From: Flavihumibacter fluminis
GTDB lineage: Bacteria; Bacteroidota; Bacteroidia; Chitinophagales; Chitinophagaceae
Length of the DNA stretch: 64,000 nucleotides
Direction: 5' to 3'
Assembly: GCF_021491375.1 (NCBI RefSeq)
Contig: NZ_JAKEVY010000002.1
Location: forward strand, 372,001 to 436,000
A model generated the notes under the pieces. It did no database searches, had not been told where the DNA came from, and was given only the letters and a program-made list of their open reading frames with translations. The position numbers were made by a program, and so were the translations under genes. Position 1 is the stretch's first letter; each line of letters opens with the position of its first letter. Positions 19,885 to 62,839 of this stretch are shown in pieces.

Positions 19885-21192
19885 TTAGAAAGGATTAGAA
19901 TTTACTAAATAGTCCTTCATTTTGCTATAGTCCACCTCAATCTGTGTTGCATTTTTGGTTTTCGTTAACGTTTCTTCAATGCTTGCCGGTACTGGTACCG
20001 GTTGACCAATTACAGGTTCTACCACATCCAGGAATTTAATCGGGTGGGCAGTTTCCAATACGATTCCTTTTTGGCCAGGATGCTGCCCGATCCAGTCAGC
20101 CAGGGCATCAAAGCCTACTGCTCCATGCGGGTCTGGCAGGTAGGCATGCTGTTGGTACATAGACCGGATGAGTTCCCTGGTGCGTTGATCGCTTGTGCGA
20201 TAACTCGACAACATGGTCTTTAATTGGTCCCGGTCTTTTCCAAACAGTTCCAATATGCGTACAAAATTGCTGGGATCTCCCACATCCATGGCATTTGAAA
20301 TAGTGGGTATGGCTTTTCGGGGTTCATAGTCGCCTGTTTCAAGGAACCTTGGCACTACATCGTTGGCATTGCAGGCGGCTATAAAATGACGTACCGGAAG
20401 CCCTGCTTTCCAGGCCATCATGCCGGCACAAATATTTCCAAAATTGCCACTTGGTACGCTGAATACCGGCGGCTGTTTTTCCTTCCATTGCTGCAGCGCG
20501 AAGAAATAATAAAACTGTTGTGGCAACCACCTGGCAACATTGATGGAATTGGCCGATGTAAGAAAGAGTTGGCTGGTCAGTTCGGCATCCTTGAAGGCTC
20601 TTTTTACCAGTTGCTGGCAATCATCAAAATTGCCATCCACCTCAAGTGCATGGATATTATCACCAAAAGTGGTCAATTGTTTTTCCTGTACGGAACTTAC
20701 TTTCCCGGAAGGATAGAGGATCACCACGCGTACTCCTTCCACGTTGTGAAAGCCACTCGCTACAGCTCCCCCGGTATCACCGGAGGTGGCTACCAACACC
20801 GTAATCGGCTGTTTTTCATCGCGGGCAAAATAGCCCAGGCAGCGACTCATAAATCTGGCTCCGATATCTTTAAAAGCTAGTGTGGGACCGTGAAATAATT
20901 CCAGGGAATATACCCCGTCGTACACCTGTTTGAGCGGTATCGGAAAGTCAATTGTTTCAGCTACTATCCTGCGTAATTCATCCTCCGGAATCGTATCGCC
21001 AACAAAAGGACGAATCACTTCATAGGCAAGCGCTTCCCTCGATAATCCGGCTAAGTTGTTAAGGATGGATGCCGGTAACTGCGGAATGCTTTCCGGAAAA
21101 TACAAGCCCCCGTCAGGCGCCTGTCCCTGTATGGTAGCCGTCCTGAAATCAACCCTCGGCGCTGTATGCTGTAAACTATAGTAATGCAACAA
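19885..21192 (-). CDS. thrC: Threonine synthase
   Basis: A 435-residue PLP enzyme that converts O-phosphohomoserine to threonine. The N-terminus MLHYYSLQHTAPRVDFRTAT and the PLP-lysine motif HGPTLAFKDIGARFM (K108) are diagnostic, and TSGDTGGAVASGF forms the phosphate-binding loop. Last gene of thrABC. The 87-base gap from thrB is filled by GTGAGAC and AATTCAT repeats. The last codons and the stop lie in a short tandem repeat (TTCTAATCC twice). Its expression should follow the leader-peptide attenuator in front of thrA. Confidence 0.97.
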   Translation of the reverse strand: MLHYYSLQHTAPRVDFRTATIQGQAPDGGLYFPESIPQLPASILNNLAGLSREALAYEVIRPFVGDTIPEDELRRIVAETIDFPIPLKQVYDGVYSLELFHGPTLAFKDIGARFMSRCLGYFARDEKQPITVLVATSGDTGGAVASGFHNVEGVRVVILYPSGKVSSVQEKQLTTFGDNIHALEVDGNFDDCQQLVKRAFKDAELTSQLFLTSANSINVARWLPQQFYYFFALQQWKEKQPPVFSVPSGNFGNICAGMMAWKAGLPVRHFIAACNANDVVPRFLETGDYEPRKAIPTISNAMDVGDPSNFVRILELFGKDRDQLKTMLSSYRTSDQRTRELIRSMYQQHAYLPDPHGAVGFDALADWIGQHPGQKGIVLETAHPIKFLDVVEPVIGQPVPVPASIEETLTKTKNATQIEVDYSKMKDYLVNSNPF

Positions 21193-21279
21193 TTATGAAT
21201 TTAGAATTATGAATTATGAATTGTCTCACGTCTCACTTCTCACGTCTCACGTTCCCTCTTCCTTTCCCCCTTTCCTCCT
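21193..21279 (-). repeat. Intergenic repeat block between thrB and thrC
   Basis: On the mRNA strand, directly after the thrB stop: a purine tract (AGGAGGAAAGG...), about four GTGAGAC-type heptads, then AATTCATAATTCATAATTC-type repeats up to the thrC start. Same family as the blocks at 27591, 38744, 44675, 45851, 46498 and 62547. Confidence 0.75.
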
Positions 21280-27590: not shown

Positions 27591-27720
27591 GTGAAACGTG
27601 AAACGTGAAACGTGAGAAGTGAAAAATGTGAAAAGTGAAACGTGAAAACATGGACGGGGTGGCAAAGGAGGCGGGGGGCAAAGGAGAAGGGAGGAAAGGA
27701 AGAGGGGGGAGGGAGTATAG
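27591..27720 (+). repeat. Purine-rich GTGAAAC / GGAGGCAAA repeat block after ppc
   Basis: Starting 6 bases after the ppc stop: heptads GTGAAAC, GTGAAAC, GTGAAAC, GTGAGAA, GTGAAAA, ATGTGAAAA, GTGAAAC and so on to about 27648, then an almost pure A/G tract with GGCAAAGGAG units to about 27716. The purines are on the mRNA strand. Overlapping long ORFs on either strand are low-complexity and not taken as genes. Confidence 0.8.
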
Positions 27721-28034: not shown

Positions 28035-28135
28035 GTCTCCTTTGTTTCCCGTTTCCTTTGTCTCCTGCCTCCTTTGTTTCCATTCTCCTTTGTCTCCTGC
28101 CTCCTTTGTTTCCCGTTTCCTTTGTCTCCCGTTCC
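28035..28135 (+). repeat. Pyrimidine-rich TCTCCTTTG / TTTCC repeat block
   Basis: About ten degenerate units of TCTCCTTTGTTTCCCGT type, the reverse-complement class of the purine block at 27650-27716. The two blocks flank composite element copy 1 as inverted arms and could pair in a single transcript. Confidence 0.75.
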
Positions 28136-38743: not shown

Positions 38744-38806
38744 TTCCTCCTTTCTTCCCTTCTCCTTTGTCTCCTCTTCCCTTCCTCACTTCTCACTTTT
38801 CACTTC
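38744..38806 (-). repeat. GTGAGAA / GGAGACAAA repeat block between gltB and gltD
   Basis: On the mRNA strand: GTGAAAA-GTGAGAA-GTGAGGA heptads that encode the last gltB residues and its stop codon, then GGAAGAGGAGACAAAGGAG-type purine repeats to about 38744. Same orientation relative to the upstream gene as the other blocks. Confidence 0.75.
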
Positions 38807-44674: not shown

Positions 44675-44743
44675 GTGAGATGTGAAATGTGAGACGTGAA
44701 ATGTGAGATGTTCTTCTGACGTCTCACATCTCACGTCTCACGT
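44675..44743 (-). repeat. Repeat-built hairpin between ilvC and ilvA
   Basis: Arm one (44687-44710) and arm two (44719-44743) are inverted GTGAGAC/GTGAGAT heptads. About 24 positions pair, and the few differences are T for C, which keep G-U pairs on one strand. The loop is 8 bases. No T-run follows, so it is more likely an mRNA processing or stability element than a terminator. Confidence 0.75.
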
Positions 44744-45850: not shown

Positions 45851-45882
45851 TTCGTCTCACGTCTCACATCTCACGTCTCACA
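45851..45882 (-). repeat. GTGAGAC heptads at the ilvN stop codon
   Basis: Four heptads (GTGAGAC, GTGAGAT, GTGAGAC, GTGAGAC) on the mRNA strand. The ilvN stop TGA is part of the first one (ATGTGAGAC). Confidence 0.8.
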
Positions 45883-46497: not shown

Positions 46498-46567
46498 CTC
46501 TTCCCTTCTCCCTTCTCCATTCCCCCGTCTCCCGTCTCCCTTTTCACGTCTCACGTCTGACGTCTCA
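46498..46567 (-). repeat. GTGAGAC / GGGAGAC heptad block between ilvB and ilvN
   Basis: About ten heptads on the mRNA strand running from the ilvB stop: GTGAGAC, GTCAGAC, GTGAGAC, GTGAAAA, GGGAGAC, GGGAGAC, GGGGGAA, TGGAGAA, GGGAGAA. The ilvB stop TGA is within the first unit. This block shows the transition from GTGAGAC to GGGAGAC units within one array. Confidence 0.8.
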
Positions 46568-48304
46568 CTTAAGTCTAATCTCCGCCACACTGCAACCCTG
46601 CGGTACCATTGGGAATACATTGTTTTCCTTACCTACCATTACTTCCAGCAGATAAGCGCCCTTGTGGTTCAGCATGGTTGATAGCGCTTCCTTCAGGTCT
46701 TTTCTTTCACGAACGCTGTTGCCATCTATGTGATATCCTTTGGCTACCTGTACAAAATCCGGACTCGTAATATTCACAAATGAATACCGGCGATCATGGA
46801 AAAGCTGTTGCCACTGACGTACCATTCCCAGGAACTCATTATTCAGGATCAGGATTTTTACATCCACATCAAACTGCATGATGGTTCCCAATTCCTGGAG
46901 TGTCATCTGGAAACCGCCATCACCGATTACTGCAACTACTGTTCTTTTGGGATCACCATATTTTGCTCCAATGGCAGCGGGCAATGCAAAGCCCATGGTT
47001 CCCAATCCACCCGAGGTTACATTGCTCTTGGTTTGATTGTAGTTGGCATATCTGCAGGCTACCATCTGGTGCTGACCAACATCTGTTACGATGATCGCAT
47101 CACCACCTGTTAATTCATTCAGGGTATTGATCACTTCACCCATGGTTAATACCTCTCCGGTTGGATGCAACTCGGGCTGGATGCATTGCTCCTGCTCCTG
47201 CTGCGCATAGTCACGGAAACGCTGTAACCATTGAGGATATACTTTGGGTTCAATCAATTCCGTCAGCATAGGAAGTGTCTCCTTACAATCGCCCCATACC
47301 GGAACAGTTGTCTTCACGTTTTTATCAATCTCTGCCGGATCAATATCAAGATGGATTACTTTCGCCTGCTTGGCATATTTATCCAGCCGGCCGGTTACCC
47401 TATCATCAAAGCGCATACCCACGGCAATCAATACATCACATTCATTGGTCAGTACATTCGGGCCATAGTTGCCATGCATTCCCAGCATTCCAACTCCAAG
47501 CGGATGATCTGTTGGGATAGCACTCATGCCCATGATGGTCCAGGCAGATGGTATTCCAGCTTTTTCTATAAAGGCAATGAATTCTTTCTCCGCTTTGCCC
47601 AGGATCACACCCTGACCAAAAATCACAAAGGGCTGTTTTGCTTCGTTGATTAATGCAGCTGCCTGCTCAATATATTCTTTGCGCACATTGGGTTTCGGGC
47701 GATAGCTACGGATATGATCACACTTTTTGTAGCCTTCATACTCAAACAACTGCAACTGCGCATTTTTGGTGATATCGATCAGCACCGGACCAGGGCGACC
47801 GGTTCTTGCGATGTAAAATGCCTTTGCCAGTACAGCAGGAATTTCTGCTGCATCCGTTACCTGGTAATTCCATTTGGTTACAGGAGTAGTGATATTGATT
47901 ACATCTGTTTCCTGAAAGGCATCTGTCCCAAGCAGGTGTGCAAATACCTGTCCTGTTATAGCTACCACGGGAGTAGAGTCAATCATTGCATCTGCCAATC
48001 CTGTTACCAGGTTGGTTGCACCCGGACCGCTGGTTGCAAATACAACTCCTACATCACCAGATGTACGTGCATATCCCTGGGCAGCATGTATACCTCCCTG
48101 TTCGTGACGTACCAGGATATGTTCCAGTTGATCACTATAATCATAAAGTGCATCGTATATGGGCATGATAGCCCCACCGGGATAACCAAATATGGTTTTC
48201 ACACCTTCCGCAATTAATGCTTCCAGTACAGCTTTCGAACCACTAATGGTCTCAGTCTTCGTCGGTAACGCAGCCTTCTGCGGCTGACTTAACGTGCTTT
48301 GCAT
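46565..48304 (-). CDS. ilvB: Acetolactate synthase large (catalytic) subunit
   Basis: A 579-residue thiamine-diphosphate enzyme that condenses pyruvate with pyruvate or 2-oxobutanoate. The catalytic-glutamate region [15 protein letters not shown] differs from the usual family text only slightly; [15 protein letters not shown] carries the conserved glutamate. The TPP/Mg motif is [18 protein letters not shown] followed by [12 protein letters not shown]. The only start codon before the conserved domain is the ATG at 48304, which lies inside ilvD, giving a 53-base overlap and implying translational coupling. Confidence 0.97.
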
Positions 48305-61946: not shown

Positions 61947-62549
61947 ATGAAGTATCTTTCTCTGGTTTTAAGTGCTGTTGCTACCCTGATTAGTGGTTAT
62001 TTATTGGTTCAGCATACAAGTAAAAAATCCGGTACCAGCGATTCTGGTGCAAGTACTGAGGCTGCTGCCGGATCTGCTGCTGAATTTAAAATCGCCTACT
62101 TCGACATCGATTCATTACAGAACAAATACGAGTATTTTAAAGATGCCCTGGCCCAGTTAAAGGCCAAGGAAGAAAATATGAATAAAGAGCTTTCCGGATT
62201 GGAACGTTCTTATCAGAAAAAAATCAATGAATGGCAGCAACAAGGTGCCAGCATGAGCCAGTCGCAGGCAGAAGCAGTTCAGCGTGAATATGGCCAGATG
62301 CAACAGAATTACCAGCAGCGTCGGCTCACCCTCGAGCAGCAGCTGGAGAACCTGAAAATGGATTACAAGAAAAACATTAAGACTAAAATTGAAGAATACC
62401 TGCGTGAGTTCAATAAGGACAAAGGATATGCCTATATTATTTCCTATGAACCCGAACTGATGTTTTACCGGGATACCGTTTACAATATTACCGATCAGAT
62501 CATCCAGGGGTTGAATGCGGAGTATAAGAAGGGGGAGGAGAAGAAGTGA
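61947..62549 (+). CDS. OmpH/Skp-like periplasmic chaperone
   Basis: A 200-residue protein with an N-terminal hydrophobic anchor/signal (MKYLSLVLSAVATLISGYLL), a Ser/Gly/Ala-rich linker and a domain starting FKIAYFDIDSLQNKYEYFKD, which is the first strand of the OmpH/Skp family. A long charged coiled coil follows (about 65-160) and a return strand GYAYIISYEPELMFYRD. Skp-type proteins hold unfolded outer-membrane proteins in the periplasm. The final codons and the stop (GAGGAGAAGAAGTGA) grade into the purine heptad repeat. Confidence 0.85.
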   Translation: MKYLSLVLSAVATLISGYLLVQHTSKKSGTSDSGASTEAAAGSAAEFKIAYFDIDSLQNKYEYFKDALAQLKAKEENMNKELSGLERSYQKKINEWQQQGASMSQSQAEAVQREYGQMQQNYQQRRLTLEQQLENLKMDYKKNIKTKIEEYLREFNKDKGYAYIISYEPELMFYRDTVYNITDQIIQGLNAEYKKGEEKK

Positions 62550-62605
62550 GAAAAAGTGAGACGTGAGACGTGAGAAGTGAGAGGTGAGAAGGCATGGAAG
62601 AGGAA
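62547..62605 (+). repeat. GTGAGAC heptad block after the OmpH-like gene
   Basis: From the stop codon on the mRNA strand: GTGAGAAAAA, GTGAGAC, GTGAGAC, GTGAGAA, GTGAGAG, GTGAGAA. Five successive units keep an exact 7-base period. A purine-rich tract with GGAGGCATGGAGACGGGA units continues to about 62640. Confidence 0.8.
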
Positions 62606-62663: not shown

Positions 62664-62691
62664 ACCCGCGGATTTTATTCGCGGGTTTTTT
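62664..62691 (+). terminator. Intrinsic terminator after the OmpH-like gene
   Basis: Stem ACCCGCG / CGCGGGT with a 9-base loop, followed by six T. It lies between the purine repeat block and the pyrimidine repeat block. Confidence 0.88.
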
Positions 62692-62822
62692 GTGCCCCGC
62701 CTCCTTTGTCTCCCTTCTCCCTTGTCTCCCTTGTCTCCCGTTCCCCGTCTCCCGTCTCCTTTGTTTCCTCTTCCAATCCTCCATCTTCCATTCTTCCATT
62801 CCCCCTTTATTCCTATCTTCCA
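62692..62822 (+). repeat. Pyrimidine-rich GTCTCCC / CTCCTTTGT repeat block
   Basis: About fifteen units of GTCTCCC, TTCTCCC and CTCCTTTGT, the reverse-complement class of the purine blocks, ending in CTTCCATTC repeats shortly before the permease start. With the block at 62547 it forms inverted arms around a terminator. Confidence 0.75.
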
Positions 62823-62839
62823 TGCTTAACTAACTGCTT

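Follow-up and report, generated by a model that had tools for sequence, protein, structure and literature searches.

The heptad repeats with the unit GTGARAY that lie at gene ends of Flavihumibacter fluminis are, in the reading to which we lean, fast-changing sequences that build hairpins at transcript ends and form the arms of inverted repeats that lie between genes and keep one polarity. What recurs is most likely the fixed-polarity hairpin at gene ends, of which the heptad is the material. This reading builds on the positions of the arrays, on their polarity and pairing potential, on a bias among the types of spacer they occupy, and on the hairpin at the end of ilvC, which occurs with differing arms in 13 of 15 genomes of the genus. 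Our best guess is that the repeat functions in the 3' mRNA, as a hairpin arm rather than as a spacer of ribosomes; neither ribosome spacing nor an insertion mechanism aimed at gene ends, both suggested in the preliminary description, gained direct support.

Repeat unit, abundance and samples

The window is the whole 64,000-nucleotide stretch that was analysed (G000:C21:372001-436000, where G000 stands for its own genome). Doublets of GTGARAY number 280 in this 4.71-Mb genome (136 on the plus and 144 on the minus strand) versus one for the reversed pattern, and in the window two adjacent units with at most two mismatches are matched 31 times, 4.9 being expected. GTGAGAC and GTGAGAT together account for 114 of the 227 units within the 14 commonest kinds in the sample from contig C11. 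The preliminary description of this DNA had named arrays after thrB, ppc, gltB, ilvC, ilvN, ilvB and an OmpH-like gene and had assigned them a period of 7 bases; arrays are present at all seven places, and the period is borne out by a lag-7 peak in self-comparison. This peak is clean in G004 (866 bases) and G041 (493 bases) versus 0-94 bases at lags besides 7, 14 and 21. In the C11 sample a constant background of about 1,070 bases appears whatever the lag, which agrees with 1,074 consecutive N in one of its spacers (the whole own-genome sample contains 11,074 N, G004 none and G041 13).

Rfam gave no match at gathering score in the window, five array strings of this repeat had no occurrence in the open-licence literature, and no description of a Flavihumibacter intergenic repeat was found in that literature. 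The IlvN protein encoded in the window shares 98% identity with its counterparts in Flavihumibacter cheonanensis and in a metagenome-assembled genome labelled Flavipsychrobacter, and 92-96% with those of five further Flavihumibacter genomes; many other matches are named Chitinophagaceae.

Positions relative to genes were scored in an own-genome sample of 1.26 Mb, which joins the window to 1.2 Mb of contig C11 and amounts to 27% of the genome. Its genes were called with a simple codon-usage script of our own and no established caller. The pooled set of 90 arrays combines this sample with those from G004, of the same genus, and G041, of another genus of the same family; G014, with two arrays in its 400 kb, both sense at a stop, was left out. 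Two arrays initially classed as coding are counted as gene-edge arrays in the final classification.

Orientation of the arrays relative to gene edges

The arrays had been described as lying always with the purine strand on the mRNA and within about 10 bases of the upstream stop codon, a pattern that equal orientations or positions far from stops would contradict. The sense bias at stops stood: 28 of the 45 arrays in the own-genome sample are sense and lie no more than 40 nt from a stop, and 13 overlap it. The others took the opposite orientation in part, with 9 antisense arrays within 40 nt of a stop, one antisense array overlapping a stop, and 8 antisense and 2 sense arrays within 40 nt of a start, where in short spacers a single array may enter two of these counts. 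Among the pooled 90 arrays, the 40 nt next to a stop had 53 sense arrays versus 16 antisense ones, the 40 nt next to a start had 5 sense arrays versus 12 antisense ones, and a stop was overlapped by 18 sense arrays and one antisense array. Orientations are thus unequal near stops, yet the stop codon itself does not dictate them.

The remaining generality of the early description did not hold. The thrB array starts 29 nt past the stop, behind another purine stretch, and an array at 44675-44709 on the plus strand, between the minus-strand genes ilvC and threonine dehydratase, had been overlooked and runs against the claim of purines on the mRNA, as do the repeats at 28035-28132 and 62701-62827, which are rich in pyrimidines on the mRNA strand. 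Among the 39 arrays of the C11 sample, 27 come after a gene on their own strand and 12 take the other orientation. Even in co-directional spacers 10 of 22 arrays are antisense; six of these ten lie at most 20 nt upstream of a start codon, two are arms of inverted pairs, and those at 101158 and 473066 are neither near a start nor a pair arm. Because of the antisense arrays and the far arm at 44675-44709, we replace the rule of purines on the mRNA with one in which the purine strand points inward from the nearest gene edge. It does so in 71 of the 90 pooled arrays; of the 19 that point outward, 9 are pair arms and the other 10 are real exceptions.

The density of arrays also depends on the type of spacer. 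In the C11 sample it amounts to 1.26 arrays per kb of convergent, 0.37 of co-directional and 0.07 of divergent spacer (binomial p of 2e-5 for the excess in convergent spacers and 3e-4 for the deficit in divergent ones), and the corresponding values are 2.37, 0.72 and 0.24 in G004 and 0.71, 0.45 and 0 in G041.

Four antisense arrays before starts (1025635 in the G000 sample; 39768, 237232 and 372589 in the G004 sample) precede TATCTTCGCNCCATG or CCTTCGCTCCATG by no more than about 20 nt. We take these two motifs to resemble the -7 promoter element of Bacteroidota; they lie almost on the start codon and therefore hint at leaderless mRNAs.

Opposed arrays and their predicted folding

Opposed pairs were defined as neighbouring arms at most 200 bp apart, with a looser definition of an arm than that used for arrays. 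All 30 close pairs in G000, G004 and G041 have the purine (+) arm first and none has the pyrimidine arm first; no pair was found in the reversed-pattern control or in G014. Single loose arms are noisy, because the reversed control yields 32 of them versus 64 real ones in the C11 sample, and 9 versus 7 in G014. A stricter partner test pointed the same way, with a strong complementary arm within 250 nt on the 3' side of 24 of the 90 arrays and on the 5' side of none. Solitary arrays are common, and some of these are antisense and lie immediately upstream of start codons.

Compared with dinucleotide shuffles, the predicted folds of the pairs have a median z of -7.3, and 28 of the 30 lie at about -3.3 or lower, the weakest three being -0.3, -1.4 and -3.3. 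A GC-rich stem with a T run stands between the arms in 6 of the 30 pairs, and in none of the 13 from G041. Arms of the same locus have units in common slightly more often than arms of different loci do, with a mean cosine of 0.51 versus 0.41 after permutation; 22 of 2000 permutations reach the observed value.

A separate stretch, GTCTTAA, recurs 20-30 nt past the far arms at 148509, 160673 and 180824 of the G041 sample; it may be another dispersed repeat or else a promoter.

Paired and lone arms in the window

Three spacers of the window carry both arms, and their whole-spacer folds reach z values of -5.4 (ilvC), -2.7 (ppc) and -3.7 (OmpH-like gene). After the ilvC stop, the near arm at 44721-44741 (minus strand), purine on the mRNA, faces the far arm at 44675-44709 (plus strand), pyrimidine on the mRNA; the pair at 44675-44741 has a predicted minimum free energy of -36.0 and a z of -7.7. 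Behind ppc, a GTGAAAC array at 27591-27648 is followed by a purine tract at 27657-27710 (both plus strand), which in the predicted fold pairs with 28035-28132 (minus strand), where 16/32-bp repeats that are pyrimidine-rich on the mRNA strand form the far arm of the ppc inverted repeat before the next gene. Between 27920 and 28034 the same spacer contains AATTGGCTCA five times (0.3 expected), with successive copies 21, 42, 21 and 21 bases apart; these steps are multiples of 7, and the block stands directly before the pyrimidine repeats.

The OmpH-like gene ends in a stop codon at 62547-62549 that itself lies within a GTGA, and its near purine arm is a GTGAGAC array of five units at 62556-62590 (plus strand). 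A GC-rich stem-loop followed by a T run at 62664-62691 (plus strand), which has the canonical look of an intrinsic terminator, separates this purine stretch from a far stretch at 62701-62827 (minus strand) of GTCTCCC-type repeats, pyrimidine-rich on the mRNA strand, and the two stretches pair in the predicted fold.

At four other gene ends of the window, the purine arm stands alone. A heptad array at 45854-45881 overlaps the ilvN stop, an array with a tract at 46502-46568 the ilvB stop, and a tract with three GTGA heptads at 38744-38803 the gltB stop (all minus strand). The placing of the TGA stop inside a GTGA unit, noted earlier for these three genes and the OmpH-like gene, is confirmed, the unit being the third one in gltB. 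The ilvN-ilvC and gltB-gltD spacers are unstructured (z of 0.8 and 0.6) and the ilvB-ilvN spacer is barely structured (z of -1.4); judging from the gene names, all three probably lie inside operons. The thrB array at 21223-21250 (minus strand) has no partner arm that we could find, and its 174-nt spacer, with one arm, forms no hairpin (z of 1.4). A second heptad array, of the unit AATTATG, adjoins it at 21191-21222.

The same spacers in relatives

In 13 of the 15 genomes of the genus the ilvC 3' spacer forms a hairpin whose z is no higher than -3.7; G003 and G010 lack it. The arms differ between these genomes and consist of GTGARAY, GTRAACR, GTAAGCG or GTGAATN-type units, or of no repeat. Behind the OmpH-like gene, purine array, T-tailed stem-loop and pyrimidine stretch are found in G000, G004, G008, G014, G002 and G013, with a purine tract in place of the array in G002, and the spacer of G007 is short and without an array; this comparison left out G001, G011, G012, G006, G003 and G009. 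The folds of the OmpH-like spacers range from a z of -2.0 (G004) to -11.8 (G013), those of G004, G008 and G002 (-2.0 to -2.5) being moderately better than shuffles.

The unit itself changes between species. After ilvN, the window has GTGAGAC/T units where the relative L031 has GTGAAAG, and a 45-base stretch about a dozen bases past the repeats is identical in both. The L031 genome contains 366 matches versus 16 in its reversed control, with GTGAAAG and GTGAAAA chief among the matches listed, and shows the same counts and places as G008, a close relative. Also among the matches listed, GTGAAAG/A is commonest in G008 and GTGAGAC/T in the species of the window, whereas G012 has GTAAACG/GTGAACG and GTGAATR, and G013 has GTAAGCG and GTGAATR. 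The ppc array is similar in the window and G004, but several units end in C in the former and in G in the latter. Synteny between G000 and G004 gave 23 shared spacers, five of which have an array in G000, all in the window; by a strict rule two of these five also have one in G004, and none of the 23 has an array in G004 only.

Among relatives, GTGANNNGTGANNNGTGA occurs in 61 of 119, with 0 to 1,017 matches per genome and a patchy distribution even within the genus; the reversed pattern also matches in relatives and sometimes exceeds the real one (133 reversed versus 64 real matches in G082). Loss of SbcCD, which we take to act as a hairpin nuclease, was considered as a cause and rejected. No SbcD exceeded the family cut-off in the 15 genomes of the genus, weak matches being seen in eight, and the six family members that do bear SbcD have 0-1 matches to GTGANNNGTGANNNGTGA. 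However, at least 10 matches are reached by 7 of 20 SbcD-positive and 28 of 100 other genomes (counted by hand), so loss of the nuclease has no consistent link with repeat abundance over these 120 genomes.

Proposed explanation and alternatives

We propose that the arrays belong to inverted repeats whose purine arm comes first and pyrimidine arm second, whichever strand is read. Where a transcription unit ends, the purine arm would lie right past the stop and the complementary pyrimidine arm further on in the mRNA, sometimes with a GC-rich stem and T run enclosed between them, and both would fold jointly into a long hairpin. Such a hairpin may terminate the transcript or insulate it and protect the 3' end, and it could serve both strands when genes converge. 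In gene clusters like ilvB-ilvN-ilvC the purine arm stands alone, unable to fold on itself. Lone purine arms are predicted to leave the spacers of clusters unstructured, which would presumably be their purpose. The arms would expand, contract and be rewritten by slippage and arm-to-arm copying while their ability to pair persists, which could be why the seven-base unit varies by species. Slippage in 7-base steps combined with copying between arms could rewrite both and yet keep their complementarity. The terminator of A-tract, stem and T-tract has the same purine-first polarity, and this likeness may be the reason why the arms grow that way.

A further idea, that hundreds of gene ends within a species are homogenised towards one heptamer, which differs from species to species, seems rather doubtful to us. 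If true, it would need, besides slippage within arrays, either a trans-acting factor with a preference for one unit or a process between loci, such as ectopic template switching or gene conversion, by which purine-first arms are copied to gene edges.

The alternative that survives best, a possible explanation though one to which we give clearly less credence than to hairpin arms, regards the arrays as neutral heptamer microsatellites. They would arise by 7-bp slippage and have no function, selection doing nothing but purge them from coding DNA and promoters, and the paired arms would come from template switching. Because all three frames of a GTGANNN array meet a TGA within 21 nt, sense arrays would be tolerated at gene ends. 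Among long simple repeats, heptamers ranked first in most genomes surveyed (Mrazek 2007, cited in PMC4679880), and the distribution of the GTGARAY arrays across the family is patchy. In the C11 sample, sense stop overlaps fall at offsets of -4 (6 arrays), -11 (1), -18 (3) and -32 (1), the first three covering the three reading frames, albeit with -4 in excess, and TGA is enriched among the array genes (19 of 23, versus 285 of 1015 genes). This enrichment, however, is not significant in G004 (6 of 14) and absent in G041 (2 of 11). Neutrality does not by itself yield the purine-first order of all 30 pairs, nor an ilvC hairpin with changed arms. Moreover, a stop-codon filter cannot explain the same layout of the Xanthomonas heptamer GGGAATC as reported in PMC4692102, because that unit contains no stop codon.

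It is quite unlikely that the pyrimidine arrays are Rho-loading (rut-like) sites, at which C-rich unstructured RNA would halt read-through and antisense transcription, a sense purine array being the same site for the antisense RNA. The polarity would fit, in that a convergent gene meets the C-rich stretch before its neighbour's stop, and solitary arms would be accounted for. However, rut sites prefer C-rich unstructured RNA, and strong folding of the RNA is predicted where the arms pair.

Mobile palindromes of the REP/BIME kind, moved by a RAYT transposase, are a very improbable source, despite sharing with the arrays the listed REP features of being extragenic, downstream of genes, rich in convergent spacers, arranged as inverted pairs and species-specific (PMC3733652). 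The Y1 transposase found no match in G000 or G008 and weak matches in 4 of the 15 genomes of the genus, over the cut-off in two (G014 and G007), and inspection by eye of the pairs listed revealed no common GTAG/CGTC tag, loop or conserved palindrome. Least credible of all are fail-safe tandem stop codons past the true stop: each GTGA unit does carry a TGA and all frames are closed within 21 nt, but the far arms (GTYTCAC on the mRNA) carry none, antisense arrays would be senseless, and a bacterial survey, in the part consulted, saw no evidence of selection for extra stops (PMC6764699).

Comparison with known systems

Several known elements resemble the proposed hairpins in part. Intrinsic terminators, some of them bidirectional, place a stem-loop and a T run after stops. 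The stem-loop past the stop is shared, and some GTGARAY loci have the T run; unlike terminators, the arms here are built from repeats and extend up to tens of bp, and 24 of the 30 pairs are without a stem and T run by the criterion used. REP, BIME and REPIN elements are likewise extragenic and convergent-rich and form opposed pairs with hairpin potential (PMC3733652, PMC3116915), whereas the GTGARAY arms are tandem heptads with no tag seen and no clear transposase. Ribosome termination structures likewise put stable mRNA structure past the stop; the part of that report consulted does not describe them as repeat-built (PMC7518266), and the lone GTGARAY arms in clusters are unstructured. The TAACTGA repeats of Beggiatoaceae, cyanobacteria and five Bacteroidetes are also intergenic heptamers of patchy distribution, but their unit is another one and, in the main genome described, they lie mostly just upstream of starts, in 169 direct sets and one indirect set (PMC4679880).

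The closest system is that of the G-rich intergenic heptamers GGGAATC of Xanthomonas and GGGGAYT of Nostoc, which lie within 50 bp of a stop on the coding strand or of a start on the non-coding strand, overlap stops in the sense orientation, are few between divergent genes, and form opposed paired sites, 70 in one Xanthomonas genome and 75 in another (PMC4692102). The GTGARAY arrays agree with them, as far as that account was consulted, in having a tandem 7-bp unit with many intergenic copies genome-wide, in lying sense near stops and antisense near starts, and in forming opposed paired sites with few arrays between divergent genes. Transcripts were found to start or stop more often at quadruplex-capable than at control repeats, the authors leaving the function open (PMC4692102). 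GTGARAY differs in lacking a G-quadruplex capacity of that kind, because its unit has no GGG. What we add to that work is the folding of paired arms and the replacement of the unit between species at one locus.

The edge rule for heptamers was thus published earlier and discussed through G-quadruplexes, and GTGARAY follows the same rule without one. Because it obeys the rule but cannot form a quadruplex, the rule has another cause, for which hairpin arms at gene ends are our leading candidate. The ilvC spacer, in which the hairpin stays while its arms differ by species, offers a natural series for weighing structure against mutation as the driver of such repeats.
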